The translations under genes were made by a program, and so were the position numbers. The notes beneath the pieces were generated by a model that searched no databases, had not been told where the DNA came from, and saw only the letters and a list, made by a program, of their open reading frames with translations. A stretch of DNA of 31,138 nucleotides, taken from the IMG/VR virus record IMGVR_UViG_3300020478_000040, positions 1 to 31,138 of that record; one strand, given 5' to 3'. This DNA comes from a virus. Shown here in pieces: positions 795-29,922 of the stretch; within the stretch, counting starts at the first letter, position 1, and each line of letters starts with the position of its first letter.

Positions 795-822
795 TTGAGT
801 GTAACATTGTTATACCTATAAC
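795..822 (+). promoter_or_regulatory. Predicted sigma70-type promoter for the 894-1624 operon, overlapped by operators
   Basis: TTGAGT at 795-800 and TATAAC at 817-822 form a -35/-10 pair with 16-bp spacing. The palindrome at 802-812 lies wholly in the spacer, and a second imperfect palindrome (819-829) covers the -10 element and the start-site region. A bound repressor would therefore block polymerase. A second candidate promoter follows downstream at 830-858. Called by eye from consensus. Confidence 0.45.
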
Positions 823-829
823 AGCGTTT
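802..829. promoter_or_regulatory. Tandem palindromic operator sites (left pair)
   Basis: Site one is TAACATTGTTATA (802-814), with a perfect dyad core TAACA-T-TGTTA. Site two is TAACAGCGTTT (819-829), an imperfect copy. Their centres are 17 bp apart (807 and 824). The 13-base site-one sequence recurs exactly, in reverse complement, at 29604-29618, and with two differences at 25817-25829 next to the helix-turn-helix gene. The likely ligand is that regulator; this is inference from motif sharing and position. Confidence 0.6.
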
Positions 830-858
830 TTGACTTTTGATAAAAAAAATGTTAATAT
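830..858 (+). promoter_or_regulatory. Second candidate promoter for the 894-1624 operon
   Basis: TTGACT at 830-835 and TAATAT at 853-858 are separated by 17 bp, giving a predicted start near 865 and a leader of about 30 bases before the ATG at 894. It lies just downstream of the operator pair, so it could be an unrepressed or differently regulated promoter. Either this or the 795-822 pair, or both, may be used. Confidence 0.4.
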
Positions 859-893: not shown

Positions 894-1190
894 ATGAATT
901 ATAAATTAATAGACTGCGGAACTTACTTTTGGTTCGTTAAAACTGATCGTAAGTACCATCATTGTATTTACAGTGTAACTGGTGAATACAAAAAAATAAG
1001 ACGTGGCAAAACAATGATGATGCCATCTAATCAAAAAATGAAGATAGCATATCTTATGAATTGGCCACTTGAAACGGCACCATGCACCTTGGATAAAAAA
1101 AGCGCAAAATTTTTTCTTAAATTATTTCGTAGTTTTACTACCAAGACTGCACGCATAAAAGAAATCATAAAACAATTGAGGTCATTATGA
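894..1190 (+). CDS. Hypothetical basic 98-aa protein
   Basis: The ATG follows a clear Shine-Dalgarno (AAAAAGGAGTTAACCG). The 98-residue product is strongly basic and aromatic at its N-terminus (MNYKLIDCGTYFWFVK) and carries a Lys/Arg-rich C-terminal half (AKFFLKLFRSFTTKTARIK). I recognise no family. It is first in a plus-strand operon running against almost everything else here. Its stop overlaps the next start in an ATGA arrangement at 1187-1190, so it is translationally coupled to the metallopeptidase-like gene. The operator-bearing promoter upstream suggests it is under control of the phage regulator and may be expressed at a different time from the virion genes. Confidence 0.7.
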   Translation: MNYKLIDCGTYFWFVKTDRKYHHCIYSVTGEYKKIRRGKTMMMPSNQKMKIAYLMNWPLETAPCTLDKKSAKFFLKLFRSFTTKTARIKEIIKQLRSL

Positions 1191-1624
1191 ACGCAACTAA
1201 AGTTTATCTTGCTAATGGTCGTTCAAAAATTAAATATCCATTATGGGTTAGGCGTTATAGAAAACCATTAGCCAAAATAATAAGAGAACAATTAAAAAAT
1301 AAACACATACAAAAAGATGATGTTAAATTTTTTAAACAAATAGTTCTTACTGCTAGGCAAGTAGCCACCAAAGAATTTTTACCTTTAAAAGATGTAGTAT
1401 CTTGGAAAGTAAGATCCAATTCTAATTATGGTTGGTGTGAACACAACGGTGATATTAAAATTAATATTACTTTTGATAGATACTACTCTAGCATTTTAAA
1501 TACCTTGGCACATGAATTGGCTCACTTAAAATTCATGCATCATTATAAAGACTTTTGGAACTATCATAAAAAATTAATTCCAATAGTCCATGATACTTTT
1601 AACAAAGTGGGAGAAAGGAGTTAA
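1187..1624 (+). CDS. YgjP/DUF45-like zinc metallopeptidase
   Basis: The 145-residue protein has AHELAHLKFMHHYKDFWNYH at about 108-127. HELAH supplies two histidine ligands (109, 113) and the glutamate (110). The following HHYKDFW matches the H-x3-FW element of YgjP-like (DUF45, M48-related) metallopeptidases, where the histidine is the third ligand. The N-terminal half (YRKPLAKIIREQL, about 24-36) is basic and helical. In this superfamily such domains can be stand-alone or attached to restriction and defence genes, and substrates are poorly known. It overlaps the upstream gene by 4 bases and ends 3 bases before the convergent SleB gene. A strong plus-strand terminator lies about 30 bases beyond its stop. 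Confidence 0.75.
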   Translation: MNATKVYLANGRSKIKYPLWVRRYRKPLAKIIREQLKNKHIQKDDVKFFKQIVLTARQVATKEFLPLKDVVSWKVRSNSNYGWCEHNGDIKINITFDRYYSSILNTLAHELAHLKFMHHYKDFWNYHKKLIPIVHDTFNKVGERS

Positions 1625-3174: not shown

Positions 3175-3672
3175 TTAGCCACCTAAGGGTGATGCATTTT
3201 CTTCTTTAATTTCTTCAATCAAAATATTTTGCAATTCATTTTCTTTTTGAACAATAGAAACTAACTTGCTTAATTCACCAATTAAATCTCTCATTTTACC
3301 AAACTCTTTGTATATTTCAGCATTGGCTTTAGACATGTTTTGCATTATCTCTTTATCAACAGATGCAAGTTTTTCATCACCTTCTATCGAATCAGATTTA
3401 GCTGTTAAAATATCTGTACTAATAACATCCAAACTATCGTTATCTCTAGCCATCCATTCATCTTCTAATGCAGACATGCGGTCTAGTATTTCAACTTCTA
3501 GTGTAGAAATTTTTTCATTAATAGGTCCTAGATCCACAGTTTCATTTACAACAAATTCTTTGTTTTCAATACCATCAAGACGTGTATTAAACTCACCCCA
3601 TGCATAAAAACCACCACCTATTGCGCCTATAACTCCTATTATAGATGCATAGCTTGTTAATTTTTCTATCAT
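3175..3672 (-). CDS. Membrane-anchored coiled-coil protein, 165 aa
   Basis: An N-terminal membrane helix with small-residue spacing (YASIIGVIGAIGGGFYAWG, about 8-26) is followed by about 135 hydrophilic residues rich in Glu, Lys, Ile and Leu. Segments such as INEKISTLEVEILDRMSALE and MRDLIGELSKLVSIVQKENE look like coiled coils. The expected topology is a single anchor with a long periplasmic rod. This resembles anchored coiled-coil proteins of marine phages, and in function could be spanin-like or tail-associated; no name can be assigned. The gene overlaps the upstream acidic protein gene by 4 bases. Confidence 0.65.
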   Translation of the reverse strand: MIEKLTSYASIIGVIGAIGGGFYAWGEFNTRLDGIENKEFVVNETVDLGPINEKISTLEVEILDRMSALEDEWMARDNDSLDVISTDILTAKSDSIEGDEKLASVDKEIMQNMSKANAEIYKEFGKMRDLIGELSKLVSIVQKENELQNILIEEIKEENASPLGG

Positions 3673-6584: not shown

Positions 6585-6671
6585 TTATGCTCCACATGAC
6601 TCACATTCATCGCCACAAGTACATTTGTCTTTATCGCAACCACAAGTAGGACAATTAGGATTATTTGGCAT
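6585..6671 (-). CDS. 28-residue cysteine-rich peptide, probable metal-binding
   Basis: This ORF lies in the gap between the fibre cassette and the membrane protein. The product begins MPNNPNCPTCGCDKDKC and has seven cysteines in 28 residues (7, 10, 12, 17, 19, 23, 26), in CxxCxC, CxC and CxxC spacing. This could bind zinc or another soft metal, or be a disulphide knot. It overlaps the upstream gene by 11 bases and its stop abuts the next ATG, so it fits the tight operon. The ribosome binding site is weak. Without it there would be a gap of about 77 bases where the rest of the operon has none. Confidence 0.5.
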   Translation of the reverse strand: MPNNPNCPTCGCDKDKCTCGDECESCGA

Positions 6672-6828
6672 CTTCAATCGCTTGTAATCTTGTTTGTTCT
6701 GCCAATATATCTTCTTTAGGAATAGGTGTAGTTTCTATCCAAACAATAGTATCTACATCATCATTGTTATATCTAAACATTGCATCTGCGTTTAAACTTT
6801 TAATTGCTTTATCTAAATCTATAATCAT
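6661..6828 (-). CDS. Small XkdW-like tail protein, cassette copy 2 (55 aa)
   Basis: The ATG at 6828 overlaps the upstream stop as ATGA and has AAGGAG 12 bases upstream. The 55-residue product contains AIKSLNADAMF near the N-terminus and TTPIPKEDILAEQTRLQ at about 34-50. This P-x-PT/PIPKE-E pattern after a W/D segment resembles XkdW-type small proteins found next to phage tail fibres (PF09636), which may be fibre assembly factors. It is a clear paralogue of 8594-8773: 46 of 49 bases are identical between 6681-6729 and 8614-8662. Confidence 0.65.
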   Translation of the reverse strand: MIIDLDKAIKSLNADAMFRYNNDDVDTIVWIETTPIPKEDILAEQTRLQAIEDAK

Positions 6829-7382
6829 GTTGCCACTAACTCCTTAACACTAAACATTGAATATTGTCCGTATGTGCTTCTATTAAATCTAATCTGGTCT
6901 GTATTTAATGTTCCACAAGCTTGTACTTTTATACTTTTTTCTGAAGTTCCCCAAGATGGATGTACATAACTAAAATGACATCTAACTCTCATATAATCTA
7001 ATGTCGCACTAGCTACAGAATACATTGCTCCATTTGCATTTAAACTTCCATCACTTAATACTGCTGAATCTGTTGTATTATAAATTTGAATTTTAATACC
7101 ATTATTAACATTTGTAGTATTGGTATTACAGATACAGTTAAACTCAATTAATAATTTAGAAGAAGCACTTGTTGGAGTAAAAGCTAAACTTGCTCCAGTT
7201 ACATCTGTAAAACTTGTTGAAGCAATAGAGGTATCATTAGTTCCTAAAGTTGTATATTTATATTGAAGAAAACTATTACTAAGTCCAGTTAGACTAGCAC
7301 CACTAATAGCTGGTAAATTACCAGTTAATACTGTTGCATCTAAAGCACTCGCACTACGAGCATTAAGTTTTGTTAGTGACAT
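6825..7382 (-). CDS. Tail fibre tip-like protein, cassette copy 2 (185 aa)
   Basis: The N-terminus reads SALDATVLTGNLPAISGASL, an attachment motif shared with the protein at 8773-9321 (LDATKLSGNLPAISGANLTG). The remaining 150 or so residues are Ser/Thr/Asn-rich beta-type sequence with phrases such as TSFTDVTGASLAFTPTSASS, typical of marine phage fibre distal domains. The N-terminal module is conserved and the C-terminal domain is divergent, as expected of receptor-binding proteins under host selection. It ends with the start of the XkdW-like gene in a 4-base overlap. Confidence 0.7.
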   Translation of the reverse strand: MSLTKLNARSASALDATVLTGNLPAISGASLTGLSNSFLQYKYTTLGTNDTSIASTSFTDVTGASLAFTPTSASSKLLIEFNCICNTNTTNVNNGIKIQIYNTTDSAVLSDGSLNANGAMYSVASATLDYMRVRCHFSYVHPSWGTSEKSIKVQACGTLNTDQIRFNRSTYGQYSMFSVKELVAT

Positions 7383-7385
7383 TCA

Positions 7386-7709
7386 TTACTCCTTTGGGTT
7401 ATCCGTTCTAACTTTGTTATATTTTGTTTTGTATTCATTCCATTTAGTGTCATCTCCACCAATTTCTTTTTCACAATATGCTTCAGCAAATTCTTTAAGA
7501 CTTGGATATTCTAATGCTCTTTGTCTTGCAAAGCCTTGACTAGCATATGCTGTTTTTAACTCTGTTAATTTATCAGTTATCTTTTGTTCTGTAGGGGGTG
7601 TTTGTCCATCTAAATATGTAATAATATCACCTTTCATAACAAGTTCGCCATCAACTAATTCTCTTATTGCATCAAATCTATCTGGCTCATTTATATATCT
7701 TTTACTCAT
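7386..7709 (-). CDS. Fibre-associated small protein, chaperone-like, cassette copy 2 (107 aa)
   Basis: The 107-residue protein ends with a conserved helical module: RQRALEYPSLKEFAEAYCEKE, then an acidic turn and TKYNKVRTDNPKE. The same module is in the 9325-9663 protein (RLKEYPSVGDMIDAICKKE...KYPKE), so the two are paralogues. Small proteins with an EYPS...YPKE C-terminus commonly sit between fibre genes in marine phages, and I take them to be assembly chaperones or baseplate-like adaptors. This is inference from position. Confidence 0.55.
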   Translation of the reverse strand: MSKRYINEPDRFDAIRELVDGELVMKGDIITYLDGQTPPTEQKITDKLTELKTAYASQGFARQRALEYPSLKEFAEAYCEKEIGGDDTKWNEYKTKYNKVRTDNPKE

Positions 7710-7718
7710 TTATTCTCC

Positions 7719-8597
7719 TCAACTGTCATCTAATTCTAGTAATGCAATTCCTTCTCCAGCGTGTAACATTACCTTATTTCCACCAGATAGTGATGAGCAT
7801 CTTGTCTTAAATGTAACTGCACCACTATACCCAGCAACTCTAACTGTTGGTAAAGGAAGTTCATCTTCATCTGAGCCAGTTGATGCTCTATGAGAAGCAA
7901 GAACAGCAGAATTTGTGTCATCATAAATATCGCAATATATTCCACCACCAGCACTGCCTCTATTAGCAGTTCCTAATCCAACTAATAGCAATATATTATC
8001 ACTGCTCTCCATTGTATGAGCAATACTTGTATGGTCTTGTACAGTAGTTCCACTTGCAGTTGTTGTACCACTACCAACCGATAAAGTAACTTTAACAAGT
8101 TTTCCTCCTCCACCAGCCTCTGCCCAAGTTAAACCACCAGTGTTAGAAGATTGGGCAGATAAAAAATATCCGTTTGTAGGCGAATTAGAAACTTGTAATC
8201 TTGCTTCGTTTACTGATTCATCTGAAAGTTTTGCCTGTGTTACTGCGTCATCGGCAATTTTTGCTGAAGTTACGGCATCATCTATAATTTTTGCTGTTGA
8301 AATAGTTGAATCGCTAGGAGTACCAATGTTAAGAACATCACCGTACACCATTATAAAGTCGATAGAATCTGACGATGTCAGCGCCGAAGCAAACGTGAGA
8401 GTTGAACTCGAAATTGTGTAGCTGGTTGTTGGTTCTTGTATTATGCCGTTTAGAGATACAAGCATATGATTAACTGATTCTGGTGAATAGTTCGATCCCC
8501 CGTACTGCATTGTATATGAAGCGGTTGCGCTAGCAGTTAGCGCGTCTAATTTTATAAAATTTCCAACCGTGGGTTGCTTGCCAATAAAGTAGGTCAT
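7719..8597 (-). CDS. Tail fibre protein, cassette copy 2 (292 aa)
   Basis: The N-terminus MTYFIGKQPTV matches MSYFIGQQPAT of the 9672-10523 protein and looks like a shared module for docking to the tail. The middle has fibre-type repeats (AKIIDDAVTSAKIADDAVTQ, residues about 100-130), usual in trimeric phage fibres. The C-terminal 125 residues are Gly/Ser-rich beta-type sequence and differ from the other copy. The start overlaps the XkdW-like stop of copy 1 as ATGA, so the second cassette follows the first without a gap. Confidence 0.75.
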   Translation of the reverse strand: MTYFIGKQPTVGNFIKLDALTASATASYTMQYGGSNYSPESVNHMLVSLNGIIQEPTTSYTISSSTLTFASALTSSDSIDFIMVYGDVLNIGTPSDSTISTAKIIDDAVTSAKIADDAVTQAKLSDESVNEARLQVSNSPTNGYFLSAQSSNTGGLTWAEAGGGGKLVKVTLSVGSGTTTASGTTVQDHTSIAHTMESSDNILLLVGLGTANRGSAGGGIYCDIYDDTNSAVLASHRASTGSDEDELPLPTVRVAGYSGAVTFKTRCSSLSGGNKVMLHAGEGIALLELDDS

Positions 8598-8773
8598 TTA
8601 TTATCCTCTATTTCTTGTAATCTTGTTTGTTCAGCTAAAATATCTTCTTTAGGAATAGGTGTCGTAGTAGAAGTATCCCACCAAATTTTATCTACATCAT
8701 TTTCTGAAACAGTATAATCTGCTTTATCATTAAGCGACTTAATTGCATCAGCTATTCTTACTTGATAAGCCAT
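8594..8773 (-). CDS. Small XkdW-like tail protein, cassette copy 1 (59 aa)
   Basis: The ATG at 8773 overlaps the upstream stop (TAATG) and has a strong GGAGG 10 bases upstream. The product starts MAYQVRIADAIKSLNDKADY, contains KIWWDTSTTTPIPKEDILAE and ends IEDNK. The tryptophan pair followed by PIPKE is the pattern of XkdW-like proteins near tail fibres. It is paralogous to 6661-6828. The very high nucleotide identity of the 3' part suggests recent duplication or gene conversion. Confidence 0.7.
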   Translation of the reverse strand: MAYQVRIADAIKSLNDKADYTVSENDVDKIWWDTSTTTPIPKEDILAEQTRLQEIEDNK

Positions 8774-9321
8774 TATGCTAATACCTCCATTAAAATTAAA
8801 TCTGATTTCATATGCAAAGCATTAAATTGAACATACCCACCACTATGAGTTTTTGCTTGTGGGGTATATGTTATTGCACTTGTGGTACTTGGAGAATCTA
8901 ATTTCATCCAAGTATATCTCGTATTTCTTTGACCATTAGTCATGGCACCTTGATTATAAACTTCATAATTATAACCAGAAGAAAATACATTACTTGTTGC
9001 ACCCCCACTTATTGCTCTTTCAAGACTAACTCCATATCCTCTAGTTCCACTTTGAATATTCAACATAGTTTGGAAAGTCCACATGGCTAAAACTTTTGAA
9101 GAAGTTGCACTAGGAGTTATTGTTCCTTCTAAGTTACAATCTGCAAAAGAAGAAGAACTATCAACATCAATTTCACTACTACCTTCTGCGTGGATTATTT
9201 GAGCCACCTTACCCGCGCTGATACCAGTTAGATTTGCTCCACTTATTGCAGGAAGATTCCCTGACAGTTTCGTTGCGTCTAAAGTTGTATATCCTGTGTG
9301 TCCTATTTTACTAAATGCCAT
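8773..9321 (-). CDS. Tail fibre tip-like protein, cassette copy 1 (182 aa)
   Basis: The N-terminus MAFSKIGHTGYTTLDATKLS is followed by GNLPAISGANLTG, the repeat found in many marine phage fibres and in the paralogue at 6825-7382. The rest is beta-rich, with FADCNLEGTITPSATSSKVL and a long aromatic/glycine segment. It probably forms a trimeric receptor-binding tip. The two paralogues share little beyond the first 35 residues and the SATSSKVL/SASSKLL element, so their binding domains have diverged. Confidence 0.7.
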   Translation of the reverse strand: MAFSKIGHTGYTTLDATKLSGNLPAISGANLTGISAGKVAQIIHAEGSSEIDVDSSSSFADCNLEGTITPSATSSKVLAMWTFQTMLNIQSGTRGYGVSLERAISGGATSNVFSSGYNYEVYNQGAMTNGQRNTRYTWMKLDSPSTTSAITYTPQAKTHSGGYVQFNALHMKSDLILMEVLA

Positions 9322-9324
9322 ATC

Positions 9325-9663
9325 TTATTCTTCCTTTGGGTATTTTGTTTTTGTTGCTTGTCTTTTTGTTTCTAAAGAATCAAATTCTGTACTATCTCCA
9401 GCCTCTTTTTTACAAATTGCATCAATCATATCTCCTACACTTGGATATTCCTTTAAACGATTTGCAATAGCTTTATCATTATTTTCAAGTTTTGTTGCTT
9501 CACTATCTAAAGCATCTAATTGTTCTTTTGTTGGTTGAGGTTTGCTTTCGTTCCACTCTACTATTGTTAAGTTTCCATCATAATCAGCAGTAACTTTTAC
9601 TGTATCTCTATTAAAAGGTTTTTCTAAATAAACTGCTATGTTATATCTTTTGTCTATTGCCAT
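9325..9663 (-). CDS. Fibre-associated small protein, chaperone-like, cassette copy 1 (112 aa)
   Basis: The N-terminal 50 residues look like a small beta domain (YNIAVYLEKPFNRDTVKVTA). A linker ending PQPTKEQLDALDSEATKLEN leads to the conserved C-terminal helix pair with RLKEYPSVGDMIDAICKKE and a KYPKEE end. It is paralogous to 7386-7709. Its place between a fibre and a fibre tip suggests a fibre-assembly role, not shown directly by the sequence. Confidence 0.55.
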   Translation of the reverse strand: MAIDKRYNIAVYLEKPFNRDTVKVTADYDGNLTIVEWNESKPQPTKEQLDALDSEATKLENNDKAIANRLKEYPSVGDMIDAICKKEAGDSTEFDSLETKRQATKTKYPKEE

Positions 9664-9671
9664 TATATTTC

Positions 9672-10523
9672 CTATGTTGCTAATTTAAATCCACTAAAAG
9701 CATTTGTATATGCTGTACTAGATAATCCTTGTGAAGTTCCTAATTCAAGAGCAACTGTAACTTCATCTCCTGCACTTACATTTATTATACCTGAACAATG
9801 AACAGCACCAGCACTTGCATTAGATGTTACTCCACGAAGTTTATTTGCTCCCTCTACTTTAATATTAAAATACATTCCAGTATAAGAAGAACCTATATTA
9901 GCATTAGCTTGAAACCACCAATAGCCACCTTGACCACTTGGAATAGTGTATTTTCCATTTGAAGTATCATATCCACTAGCTGAATCAAAAATAGAATTAG
10001 TAAAAACTAACACAGCTTCACTACCTACTGTTTGTGTCGTTGTATCAACACGAAAATAAGGAGTATTGTTTCCACCTTTAATTAAAGAATAATCTATTCT
10101 TTTTATAACTCCGCCATCACTTACTAAAAATTCATCTGTGTCTGAAGGCTCGGAACTAAGTTCGGTTTGTGCAGATATAACATCAGTATTAAGTTTTGCT
10201 CCAGTAACAGCAGTATCATTTATAGTTGTGGTTGTAACACTACCAGCAGTAGGGTTAACTGATTGCATTACTTTATTTAAGTAATACACAGTTACGACAT
10301 CCCCTGAAACTAATGTGCCACCCAATGTAAGAGTTCTATTTCCTGTACCTCCTACCGAATAAGAATTTTTATCCTGAACTATATTTTGCCATACAACAAG
10401 TATATCTTCTTCCGCAGATATATCGTGATTTAAAGTTACCGTATTAGTCGTTAGACCTGTAAATCTATCCTGAATACCACTATCAAAAGTAGTTGCTGGT
10501 TGTTGTCCTATAAAGTATGACAT
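9672..10523 (-). CDS. Tail fibre protein with C1q-like C-terminal domain, cassette copy 1 (283 aa)
   Basis: Residues 1-11 (MSYFIGQQPAT) are the docking module shared with 7719-8597. The first 90 residues form a beta domain with NIVQDKNSYSV. From about residue 155 the sequence (PYFRVDTTTQTVGSEAVLVF, YTIPSGQGGYWWFQANANI, SGIINVSAGDEVTVAL, FSGFKLAT) follows the C1q/TNF-like jelly-roll pattern known in phage fibres, a trimeric ligand-binding fold. This is the likely host-receptor or glycan-binding tip. The gene starts at the base where the upstream 106-aa gene ends. Confidence 0.75.
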   Translation of the reverse strand: MSYFIGQQPATTFDSGIQDRFTGLTTNTVTLNHDISAEEDILVVWQNIVQDKNSYSVGGTGNRTLTLGGTLVSGDVVTVYYLNKVMQSVNPTAGSVTTTTINDTAVTGAKLNTDVISAQTELSSEPSDTDEFLVSDGGVIKRIDYSLIKGGNNTPYFRVDTTTQTVGSEAVLVFTNSIFDSASGYDTSNGKYTIPSGQGGYWWFQANANIGSSYTGMYFNIKVEGANKLRGVTSNASAGAVHCSGIINVSAGDEVTVALELGTSQGLSSTAYTNAFSGFKLAT

Positions 10524-17966: not shown

Positions 17967-18240
17967 GTGTTAAAGTTGCTGTTTGTTTTCCTTGTGCGGA
18001 AACATATAAACTTGTTATTCCTGCCGAAGCGTTAGCTGTTGTTGGCATAAAAACAATAACACTATCACCACCTAAACGTCTATCAGACAACGTAGTTGTT
18101 GTTTGACTAGCGGTTAGTGTGACTGATCCTGTTGAGTTTAGTTTTCCATCTAAGGAATTGTTAACTACAATGGCTAATTGTCGTCGATGTTCTTCTGGTA
18201 TTGGATTAGATAACGGTACAGCTTGAAACTGATTAGCCAT
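17914..18240 (-). CDS. Conserved small structural protein, 108 aa
   Basis: The protein reads EEHRRQLAIVVNNSLDGKLN near residues 16-35, then STGSVTLTASQTTTTLSDRR, SVIVFMPTTANASAGITSLY and ends DRTYKYIIIG. This is a recognisable marine phage protein type, usually next to tail nozzle genes, and probably a small beta-structured virion or fibre-adaptor component. No function is established to my knowledge. Its start overlaps the end of the nozzle-like gene by one base. Confidence 0.6.
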   Translation of the reverse strand: MANQFQAVPLSNPIPEEHRRQLAIVVNNSLDGKLNSTGSVTLTASQTTTTLSDRRLGGDSVIVFMPTTANASAGITSLYVSAQGKQTATLTHANNGQTDRTYKYIIIG

Positions 18241-20664: not shown

Positions 20665-20683
20665 ATTTTCCTTGGTTTTCTAA

Positions 20684-20703
20684 GGAGGGGAATAATCCCC
20701 TCC
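20684..20703. terminator. GC-rich stem-loop after the major capsid gene
   Basis: GGAGGGG (20684-20690) pairs perfectly with CCCCTCC (20697-20703) around AATAAT, the most GC-rich hairpin in the window. It lies in the small gap between capsid (ending 20715) and the next gene. On the minus strand it is followed by TTAGAAAA, a poor U-tract, so it may be a partial terminator or an mRNA-stabilising 3' end that raises capsid expression above that of the tail genes. Confidence 0.6.
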
Positions 20704-20714
20704 CTTTACATCAA

Positions 20715-25794: not shown

Positions 25795-25816
25795 TGATTA
25801 TTATTTCTTTATAGTG

Positions 25817-25829
25817 TAACAACGTTATA
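25817..25829. promoter_or_regulatory. Palindromic operator between portal and HTH genes
   Basis: TAACAACGTTATA matches the operator found at 802-814 and 29604-29618 with two differences. On the minus strand it lies between a TATAAA -10 (25813-25808) and a weak -35 (25836-25831), the same in-spacer placement as at the other sites, so it may control portal transcription. It ends just before the HTH start codon at 25831 and could also control that gene. Overlap with both start regions makes autoregulation likely; this is inference. Confidence 0.55.
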
Positions 25830-25830
25830 T

Positions 25831-26076
25831 ATGAATAAAATAACTAAACATGGCTTTAGGCGATTGCTTAAATTCCTTAATATGTCCCAAGGTCAATTGG
25901 CTAGGGAAACAGGTCAGACGAGAACCAGTATAGGTAATTACTTTAATGGTCGTCGTCCGATTAATACGTTGATGGCGTGGGGTCTAAACCTCAAGGTTGA
26001 GAATGAAGAACTCAAAAAACACAATACTAAACTATCCCAGAGGGTCCATACTTTAAATCAGAGGACCAAGAACTAG
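25831..26076 (+). CDS. XRE-type helix-turn-helix regulator, 81 aa
   Basis: Residues 9-34 (FRRLLKFLNMSQGQLARETG, then QTRTSIGNYFNGRR) form a classic Cro/C1-type helix-turn-helix: a helix, SQ-x-x-LA, G-x-x, and an S/T-I-x-x-Y recognition helix. A leucine/charge-rich tail (KVENEELKKHNTKLSQRVHT) may form a coiled coil for dimerisation, which fits a palindromic operator. It is the only plus-strand gene among the virion genes, and its 3' end overlaps the terminase gene antisense by 50 bases. There is no Shine-Dalgarno before its ATG, so it may use a short-leader or leaderless transcript. It is the likely repressor of the operators described here. Confidence 0.75.
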   Translation: MNKITKHGFRRLLKFLNMSQGQLARETGQTRTSIGNYFNGRRPINTLMAWGLNLKVENEELKKHNTKLSQRVHTLNQRTKN

Positions 26077-27334: not shown

Positions 27335-27889
27335 TTAAATCCAGTCTATAGTAGGTAATCCATTGTAATTAACGTCATAAATAAACCAGCCAAAAGCCAT
27401 AAGACCTCTAGCAATAGTATCGCCTTGTTTTTTAAATGGTACTCGTCTTGAAAAGATTAAAACTTTTTCTAATTTTTTTTTATTAAATATTTGCTCTCGT
27501 CTTTTTATTCCTTCTAAATAAGAAATTTTAGAAAGCATAACTACTTTTTTTCTAGCAAGTGTAAAAGCATGAGTAGTAAATTCTGTTGCTAAATTAAAAG
27601 GTGGATTTGTAACTATGTTATCAACTTTTTTTGTTGATTGTAAAAAATCTATTCCTGTTTCTCCATATCCTCTATCAATTAAATCTGAAGAATAAACATC
27701 ATATCCTTCTTTAATCATTAATTTAGACATAGCACCATTACCACAAGCACATTCCCAAATGTTGCCATCAAATTTTTGTCTATCTAATAATGATTGTGTT
27801 GCATTATCTGGTGTTGGATAAAAGTCATCCTTTTCTCTATCACCTTTTGCGTTATGTCCTACATACGCTAAAGCTGAACTTGTTTTCAT
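27335..27889 (-). CDS. DNA adenine-N6 methyltransferase-like protein, 184 aa
   Basis: The SAM-binding motif region reads WECACGNGAMSKLMI at about 45-59, followed by the second-strand acidic YSSDLID. NPPF (95-98) is the catalytic motif IV of amino-methyltransferases acting on adenine-N6. FYPTPDNATQSLLD near the N-terminus fits the substrate-side segment before motif I in phage and Dam-like enzymes. No restriction partner is visible, so it is an orphan enzyme that may protect phage DNA from host nucleases or mark it for packaging; the target sequence is not deducible here. It lies between the small and large terminase genes. Confidence 0.75.
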   Translation of the reverse strand: MKTSSALAYVGHNAKGDREKDDFYPTPDNATQSLLDRQKFDGNIWECACGNGAMSKLMIKEGYDVYSSDLIDRGYGETGIDFLQSTKKVDNIVTNPPFNLATEFTTHAFTLARKKVVMLSKISYLEGIKRREQIFNKKKLEKVLIFSRRVPFKKQGDTIARGLMAFGWFIYDVNYNGLPTIDWI

Positions 27890-29597: not shown

Positions 29598-29625
29598 TTG
29601 ACATATAACAATGTTATAGTGTAAA
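29598..29625 (+). promoter_or_regulatory. Predicted promoter of the tiny 29635-29897 operon
   Basis: A perfect -35 TTGACA (29598-29603) and a weak -10 TGTAAA (29620-29625) are 16 bp apart. The operator palindrome fills the spacer, as at 795-822, and a second imperfect palindrome covers the start-site region. The same arrangement of -35, operator and -10 at two separate promoters is the main support. Confidence 0.5.
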
Positions 29626-29633
29626 CGTTGTTT
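29604..29633. promoter_or_regulatory. Tandem palindromic operator sites (right pair)
   Basis: TATAACAATGTTATA (29604-29618) is a palindrome apart from its central base. AAACGTTGTTT (29623-29633) is an imperfect copy. The centres are 17 bp apart (29611 and 29628), equal to the spacing at 802-829. They flank the start site of the tiny operon. Confidence 0.6.
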
Positions 29634-29634
29634 T

Positions 29635-29772
29635 ATGATTAAAAATAAAAAAATAAATAAATCAATGACATTTATTAAATTAAAAAAAATTATTAAAAAA
29701 AATAAACACATTAAAAATTATAATGCTTGGTATAAAGCATTAATAATTAACATAATAAAGGAGGTTAATTAA
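29635..29772 (+). CDS. Tiny basic protein, 45 aa
   Basis: The ATG at 29635 opens a 45-codon frame ending at the next gene start (TAATG). The product is very Lys/Ile/Asn-rich (MIKNKKINKSMTFIKLKKII...NYNAWYKALIINIIKEVN), with a probable amphipathic helix. No Shine-Dalgarno is visible before its ATG, and the first three bases lie just after the operators; if translated it may be from a short leader. Composition alone would be weak evidence, but coupling to the next gene, promoter and terminator support it. No function can be assigned. Confidence 0.4.
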   Translation: MIKNKKINKSMTFIKLKKIIKKNKHIKNYNAWYKALIINIIKEVN

Positions 29773-29897
29773 TGTTATTAATTATGACACCTACCCCCTG
29801 TGTTTTAGATAAAAATGATATTAATTATTTTTATTGGGGAATTAATTATTGGATAAATGGCGATTACTCTTGTTATAAAATTTATCCAAACAGATAA
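29772..29897 (+). CDS. Tiny aromatic-rich protein, 41 aa
   Basis: An excellent Shine-Dalgarno (AAAGGAGG at 29757-29764) lies seven bases before the ATG at 29772, itself overlapping the previous stop. The product starts MLLIMTPTPCVLDKNDINYF and has many Tyr, Trp and Asn residues and two cysteines (10 and 34). No family is recognised. It could be a small inhibitor of a host or phage protein. It ends two bases before the terminator stem. The strong ribosome site makes this the best-supported protein in the tiny operon. Confidence 0.55.
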   Translation: MLLIMTPTPCVLDKNDINYFYWGINYWINGDYSCYKIYPNR

Positions 29898-29898
29898 A

Positions 29899-29922
29899 AG
29901 GTGGCTCAATAATGAGCCATCT
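29899..29922. terminator. Bidirectional intrinsic terminator
   Basis: Bases 29899-29908 pair with 29913-29922 (core TGGCTCA-ATAA-TGAGCCA) in a stem of 10 bp with one G-T pair. T-rich sequence follows on the plus strand, and ...CCTTTTATC on the minus strand. It separates the tiny plus-strand operon from the convergent DUF6456-like gene, which ends at 29925, and would stop both. Confidence 0.8.

Follow-up and report, generated by a model that had tools for sequence, protein, structure and literature searches.

Dispersed palindromic operators probably tie exchangeable cargo slots to a small XRE-type regulator in temperate kin of pelagiphages

Among marine phages there is a group, akin to the phages of SAR11 bacteria, in which palindromic operators of the form TRTAACRNYGTTATA quite probably belong to the phage's own XRE-type protein of 78-81 amino acids, which would act in trans as an autoregulated repressor of a dispersed regulon. 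What is new is that dispersed palindromic operators are combined with exchangeable cargo slots; if the proposal is true, cargo, integrase, and regulator are tied into one testable switch. Pelagiphages and their kin rank among the most abundant marine viruses, and no operator or regulon was found described for them in the literature searched. The window, meaning the whole stretch of DNA analyzed, comprises 31,138 bp on one strand of an IMG/VR virus record (33% G+C; 3.8% non-coding, 96% coding) and covers part of the genome of a temperate podophage; its TerL shares 40-44% identity with that of HTVC010P-type pelagiphages, the closest cultured relatives by this protein. The comparison set, drawn from IMG/VR, consisted of 11 close XRE relatives and 37 portal relatives. 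One relative, G011 (40,876 bp, or 40.9 kb), carries a 99-bp direct terminal repeat at its ends and is therefore very probably a closed genome; comparison with it indicates that about 9 kb, including the integrase and the early region, is absent from the window.

An earlier note, made from the window alone, had proposed a three-site switch built on a 13-base sequence, TAACATTGTTATA. The exact match at 802-814 on the plus strand stands, as does a third site, TAACAACGTTATA, at 25817-25829 with two differences, and all three sites are intergenic (3/3). The reverse-complement copy is likewise exact, although its 13 bases occupy 29604-29616 on the minus strand, the span given as 29604-29618 being that of the full 15-bp palindrome. 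Seen with the relatives, the operator is best written at this greater length, with arms TATAAC/GTTATA around R-N-Y, and at both outer sites a second palindrome does lie 17 bp from the first. The operators of the window are as follows.

800..814, plus strand: operator A1, TGTAACATTGTTATA, conserved in G003, G011, and G013
817..831, plus strand: operator A2, TATAACAGCGTTTTT, overlapping the -35 element by 2 bp, centered about -41 from the predicted start, and conserved in relatives
25815..25829, plus strand: operator B, TGTAACAACGTTATA, 1 bp upstream of the start codon of XRE (overlapping the start in relatives), a predicted autoregulatory site
29604..29618, plus strand: operator C1, the perfect palindrome TATAACAATGTTATA, between -35 and -10
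29621..29635, plus strand: operator C2, GTAAACGTTGTTTTA, with degenerate arms and an intact AAC-GTT-GTT core, over the -10/start codon region

These palindromes are real and not a product of chance. With a matrix built from the relatives, the best sites in the window begin at 29604 (21.2), 800 (20.5), 25815 (19.6), and 817 (13.8); all four lie between genes, the site next in rank (11.2) falls in a coding region, and in 300 first-order Markov shuffles of the window the third-best score, 19.6, was never reached. Loose matching with up to three mismatches gave no enrichment in the window (49 found, 42 expected), so that the signal is carried by the near-exact sites only. Nor do near-exact sites in the relatives stand at random within coding genes: 50 of 51 are intergenic, where 9.2% of the sequence is intergenic, and a reversed control pattern had no match in 12 records. 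The sharing of one operator among distant sites is supported, and the count of three proves too low, given that G011 carries operators in seven regions, A, B, C, D, E, F, and G, with some 9 kb of such a genome beyond the window.

The likely binder is encoded within the window, as had been supposed.

25831..26076, plus strand: gene of the XRE-type regulator, 81 aa long (relatives, 78 aa), with a helix-turn-helix (HTH) followed by a long C-terminal helix

The protein passes the HTH_3 family cut-off (PF01381, 28.8 bits against 23) and has 35 relatives in IMG/VR. An operator is found at the XRE start in all 33 group loci with this junction, two of which (L050 and L051) have another ORF between operator and gene, and no near-exact site occurs in nine more distant loci that lack this XRE, including three cultured genomes of HTVC010P-type pelagiphages. 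Further, down to 50% identity the HTH segment TRT..GNY.NGRRP does not vary, in contrast to the diverging C-terminal helix. As far as comparison of loci can speak, the link between operator and regulator is strongly supported, although covariation between the two does not bear on it, operator and recognition segment being both constant among relatives. The best reading of the protein is a repressor of Aca-like or Cro-like type. An AlphaFold model of modest confidence (pLDDT 77) has three helices and then a 35-residue helix, which may form a coiled-coil dimer; a PDB fold search with this model gave nothing significant (E of about 0.5 to 1 for the best matches, 434 Cro, Aca1, and C proteins among them), and tblastn in annotated phages returned weak HTH matches only. 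In the window, XRE starts (25831-25839) three codons earlier than in the relatives, and the operator there consequently ends one base before the start codon and does not overlap it as theirs do.

The gene is monocistronic and stands alone between portal and TerL, with the cargo kilobases away. Control of the virion operon, the remaining limb of the switch first envisaged, is not supported: site B overlaps the start region of the XRE gene, and the minus-strand operon to which the portal belongs, as an internal gene, starts beyond TerL. Adjoining TerL in the window is a DNA methyltransferase gene (27335-27889, phrog_799) that is not at that place in G011.

The cargo occupies two slots, C between a 99-aa gene that starts the late operon and a 172-aa gene, and E beside the capsid gene. 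Slot C of the window runs from 29598 to 29922, between late genes, and contains operators C1 and C2 together with the following.

29598..29603, plus strand: -35 element TTGACA of the slot C promoter, near-constant in the slots of relatives
29635..29897, plus strand: slot C cargo, ORFs (45 and 41 aa) not seen in the slot of any other relative
29899..29922, no strand assigned: bidirectional terminator closing the slot C cassette
20665..20714, no strand assigned: slot E, empty in the window (a 57-bp gap as measured), with neither cargo nor operators

In relatives the slot promoter is near-invariant, TTGACA followed by an operator, 3 bp, and a second operator, before different genes; here the placing of the first operator in the -35/-10 spacer is borne out, TTGACA directly preceding it at 29604. 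The motif TGTAACANYGTTATATG alone is not specific (92 stretches in 2.9 million viral contigs), and only the promoter-plus-operator pattern was therefore used. This 21-base pattern, TTGACATATAACAWTGTTATA, comprising the -35 element and the operator, has 39 matches in 37 stretches of the same collection; 37 of the 39 fall in slots C or E of this phage group, and the other two belong to one unrelated sequence with no second operator. Among 29 distinct cassettes, the second operator core follows 17 or 18 bp further in 28, the exception (L095) having one core mismatch, and in 24 the second operator itself supplies the -10 hexamer TATAAC at 18-bp spacing. The variant seen as operator C2 recurs in L058, L082, L085, and L086. 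In about half of the cassettes the first ATG comes 6-7 bases after the -10, an arrangement that suggests leaderless messages whose start codon is covered by the operator. Every filled slot has operators (14/14 for E, at 322-977 bp, and 16/16 for C). Behind these promoters stand 27 ORF families, mostly of unknown function, one of them Mom-like/XF1762 and another weakly metallopeptidase-like. If the proposal is true, the promoter signature alone, given its specificity, reveals these families, one of which is related to Mom-like DNA modification. In L085 the ORFs after the slot C cassette are terminase-like and come from a different type of phage, with a TerL about 29% identical, and the contig is either a genuine mosaic or an assembly chimera.

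As we infer the switch, an XRE dimer probably binds the AAC-RNY-GTT core, and in slots C and E one dimer would sit between -35 and -10 and a second over the -10 and start, excluding RNA polymerase from otherwise strong promoters. Because of this double coverage, repression is the natural reading at C and E, and likewise autoregulation at B, where XRE would cover the start region of its own gene. With polymerase so excluded, cargo is expected to be expressed in a burst before XRE accumulates and to be off afterwards and in the lysogen, and besides the integrase the regulon would take in both early promoters in the window's clade. The more ambitious reading, in which one Aca-like regulator acting in trans has charge of slots across the late operon that are dedicated to the exchange of early accessory genes, perhaps anti-defence genes, is put forward tentatively and falls somewhat short of probable; under it the constant slot promoter would bring any gene landing behind it at once under phage timing control, and the promoter signature would make it possible to search uncultured phages for accessory genes as yet unknown.

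Of the known systems, the Aca regulators, such as Aca1 (79 aa) and the XRE protein Aca3 (70 aa), are alike in being small HTH proteins that are autoregulated, as is predicted here, and that front variable accessory genes from a strong sigma-70 promoter with an inverted repeat inside its core and often a second similar one (PMC9410906). The slots do have one inverted repeat inside a sigma-70 core promoter and a second nearby. However, aca is co-transcribed with its acr cargo (PMC9410906), whereas this XRE is monocistronic and faces several distant loci including the integrase; it shares no operon with the accessory genes that it would control and for this reason falls outside the Aca class. No known anti-CRISPR was found among the slot cargo, which is mostly of unknown function. 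The C1 repressor of phage P1, with its 22 dispersed operators, is alike in being one autoregulated repressor (autoregulation being predicted for XRE) with operators scattered over a phage genome (PMC8546580), and the seven G011 regions likewise show one operator repeated at the regulator gene and at several promoters far apart. The P1 operators are 17 bp and asymmetric (PMC8546580), while those described here are fewer, 15-bp palindromes, and mostly tandem pairs. The stoperators of cluster A mycobacteriophages are also repressor sites dispersed in number over a temperate phage genome, but they are 13 bp, asymmetric, in one orientation relative to transcription, and thought to stop elongation (PMC6550527); the XRE sites, in contrast, are palindromes within or next to promoters. 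Morons offer a further parallel, in that slot C has its own promoter and terminator between late genes and slots are present or absent among relatives, slot E being empty in the window and filled in 14 relatives. Classical morons are usually expressed in the lysogen, whereas the slot promoter here is covered by predicted operators of a phage regulator.

Site A stands before a pair of plus-strand genes, and in G011 region A precedes the same operon.

830..858, plus strand: promoter A, TTGACT-17-TAATAT, hexamers and spacing kept in three relatives
894..1190, plus strand: 98-aa protein gene, first behind site A, without a family match and conserved in relatives
1187..1624, plus strand: 145-aa YgjP-like/SprT-like metallopeptidase gene, second behind site A (PF01863, E=2.6e-8)

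The arrangement supports the control of plus-strand satellite genes that had been proposed. Promoter A is the only sigma-70-like promoter found at the site, and since both operators lie upstream of its -35, the placing of the first operator in the -35/-10 spacer does not extend to 800. A promoter TTGAGT-16-TATAAC around operator A1, probably the one that the earlier note had in mind, was set aside because its -35 is not kept in relatives.

Operators likewise lie just upstream of the -35 at A, D2, D1, and F (centers about -41, -42, -46, and -47 from the predicted starts), positions that would allow either repression by -35 overlap or activation as at lambda PRM. XRE might be a dual regulator, with repression at slots C and E and at its own gene and activation of A, D2, and perhaps the integrase in the manner of lambda CI at PRM; it would then be a relay switch that hands over from immediate-early cargo to the stage that follows. 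About -41/-42, adjoining the -35, is the activator position of lambda CI at PRM, and the proximal operator at A and D2 is centered just there, next to the -35, while at C and E it lies inside the core promoter. Yet promoter A, with its good -35 (TTGACT) and extended -10, argues against dependence on an activator, the centers at D1 and F are half a helical turn off, and the overlap of A2 with the -35 fits repression; the dual regulator is accordingly judged unlikely, and a repressor is preferred.

The integrase is preceded by an operator (region F) in G001, G003, G011, G013, G016, and L098. Region D lies between a gene for a second DNA-binding protein, with a LexA domain (79-81 aa; PF01726, E=1e-6), and the early operon; its early promoters, where a lysogeny (immunity) repressor would be expected to have operators, carry them in the window's clade (G001, G003, G008, and G011) and lack them in the G013/G016 clade. 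This absence indicates that XRE is not a general repressor of early genes there, and that the conserved core of the regulon would consist of XRE, cargo, and integrase, with the replication genes outside it. A second palindrome family, GTTC-N11/12-GAAC, occurs twice in the early region and once over the integrase -35, kept in G001, G003, and G008 (early region) and in G001 and G003 (integrase), and is a candidate site of the 79-aa LexA-domain protein.

L021 (G011:1-20000), 18062-18080 and 18146-18164: GTTC-N11/12-GAAC sites
L022 (G011:20001-40000), 3401-3420: GTTC-N11/12-GAAC site
L022, 4616-4630: operator G, overlapping the stop codon of an 814-aa gene and the start codon of a minus-strand ORF (43 aa, zinc-ribbon-like, with no clear -35)

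That the LexA-domain protein and not XRE binds the operators is improbable. Its gene and the early operon are divergently oriented, and in the window's clade its promoter is flanked by TAACA-type sites, but GTTC-N11/12-GAAC, present in its own and the integrase promoter regions, is the better candidate site, and clade comparison tells against the idea: in the G013/G016 clade the LexA-domain promoter is without a TAACA-type site, while XRE, slots, and integrase have it. In that other clade (L103, L083, L190, and L151) a different palindrome, about AAATGTTYRTAAACATTT, lies upstream of the LexA-domain gene, with no XRE operator. The notion that the palindromes are recombination or exchange sequences or a host-factor site is hardly credible, for although slots do swap cargo behind a conserved sequence, operators also precede genes that are not exchanged (XRE, the integrase, and site A), cargo families are slot-specific save a single weak cross-slot similarity (E=8e-6), and the three cultured pelagiphages are without a near-exact site.

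With XRE retained as the probable binder, the regulon is set in phages that, to judge from their genes, are temperate, since G011 (the window itself not reaching so far) encodes an integrase (PF00589, phrog_1) and a 48-bp attP core exact in alphaproteobacterial genomes, where ARAGORN finds tRNA-Met(CAT) at such a match. The core is the 3' part of the tRNA-Met only; ARAGORN found no tRNA genes in the phage contigs, and the core of G013 and G016 instead matches tRNA-Phe(GAA). A portal search for prophages of the group in bacterial genomes gave only relatives at 36-41% in alphaproteobacterial bins and not one such prophage. Uncultured relatives of pelagiphages linked to integrase and att have been reported (PMC3861242), and temperate kin of pelagiphages are thus already known. 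In G011 the attP core (L022, about 3385-3530) has the integrase promoter with operator F on one side and the integrase gene on the other, and integration would therefore separate promoter from gene. Elsewhere, at 6661-10523 of the window, two parallel four-gene tail-region modules stand in tandem (55/185/107/292 aa and 59/182/112/283 aa), as if one module had been duplicated.
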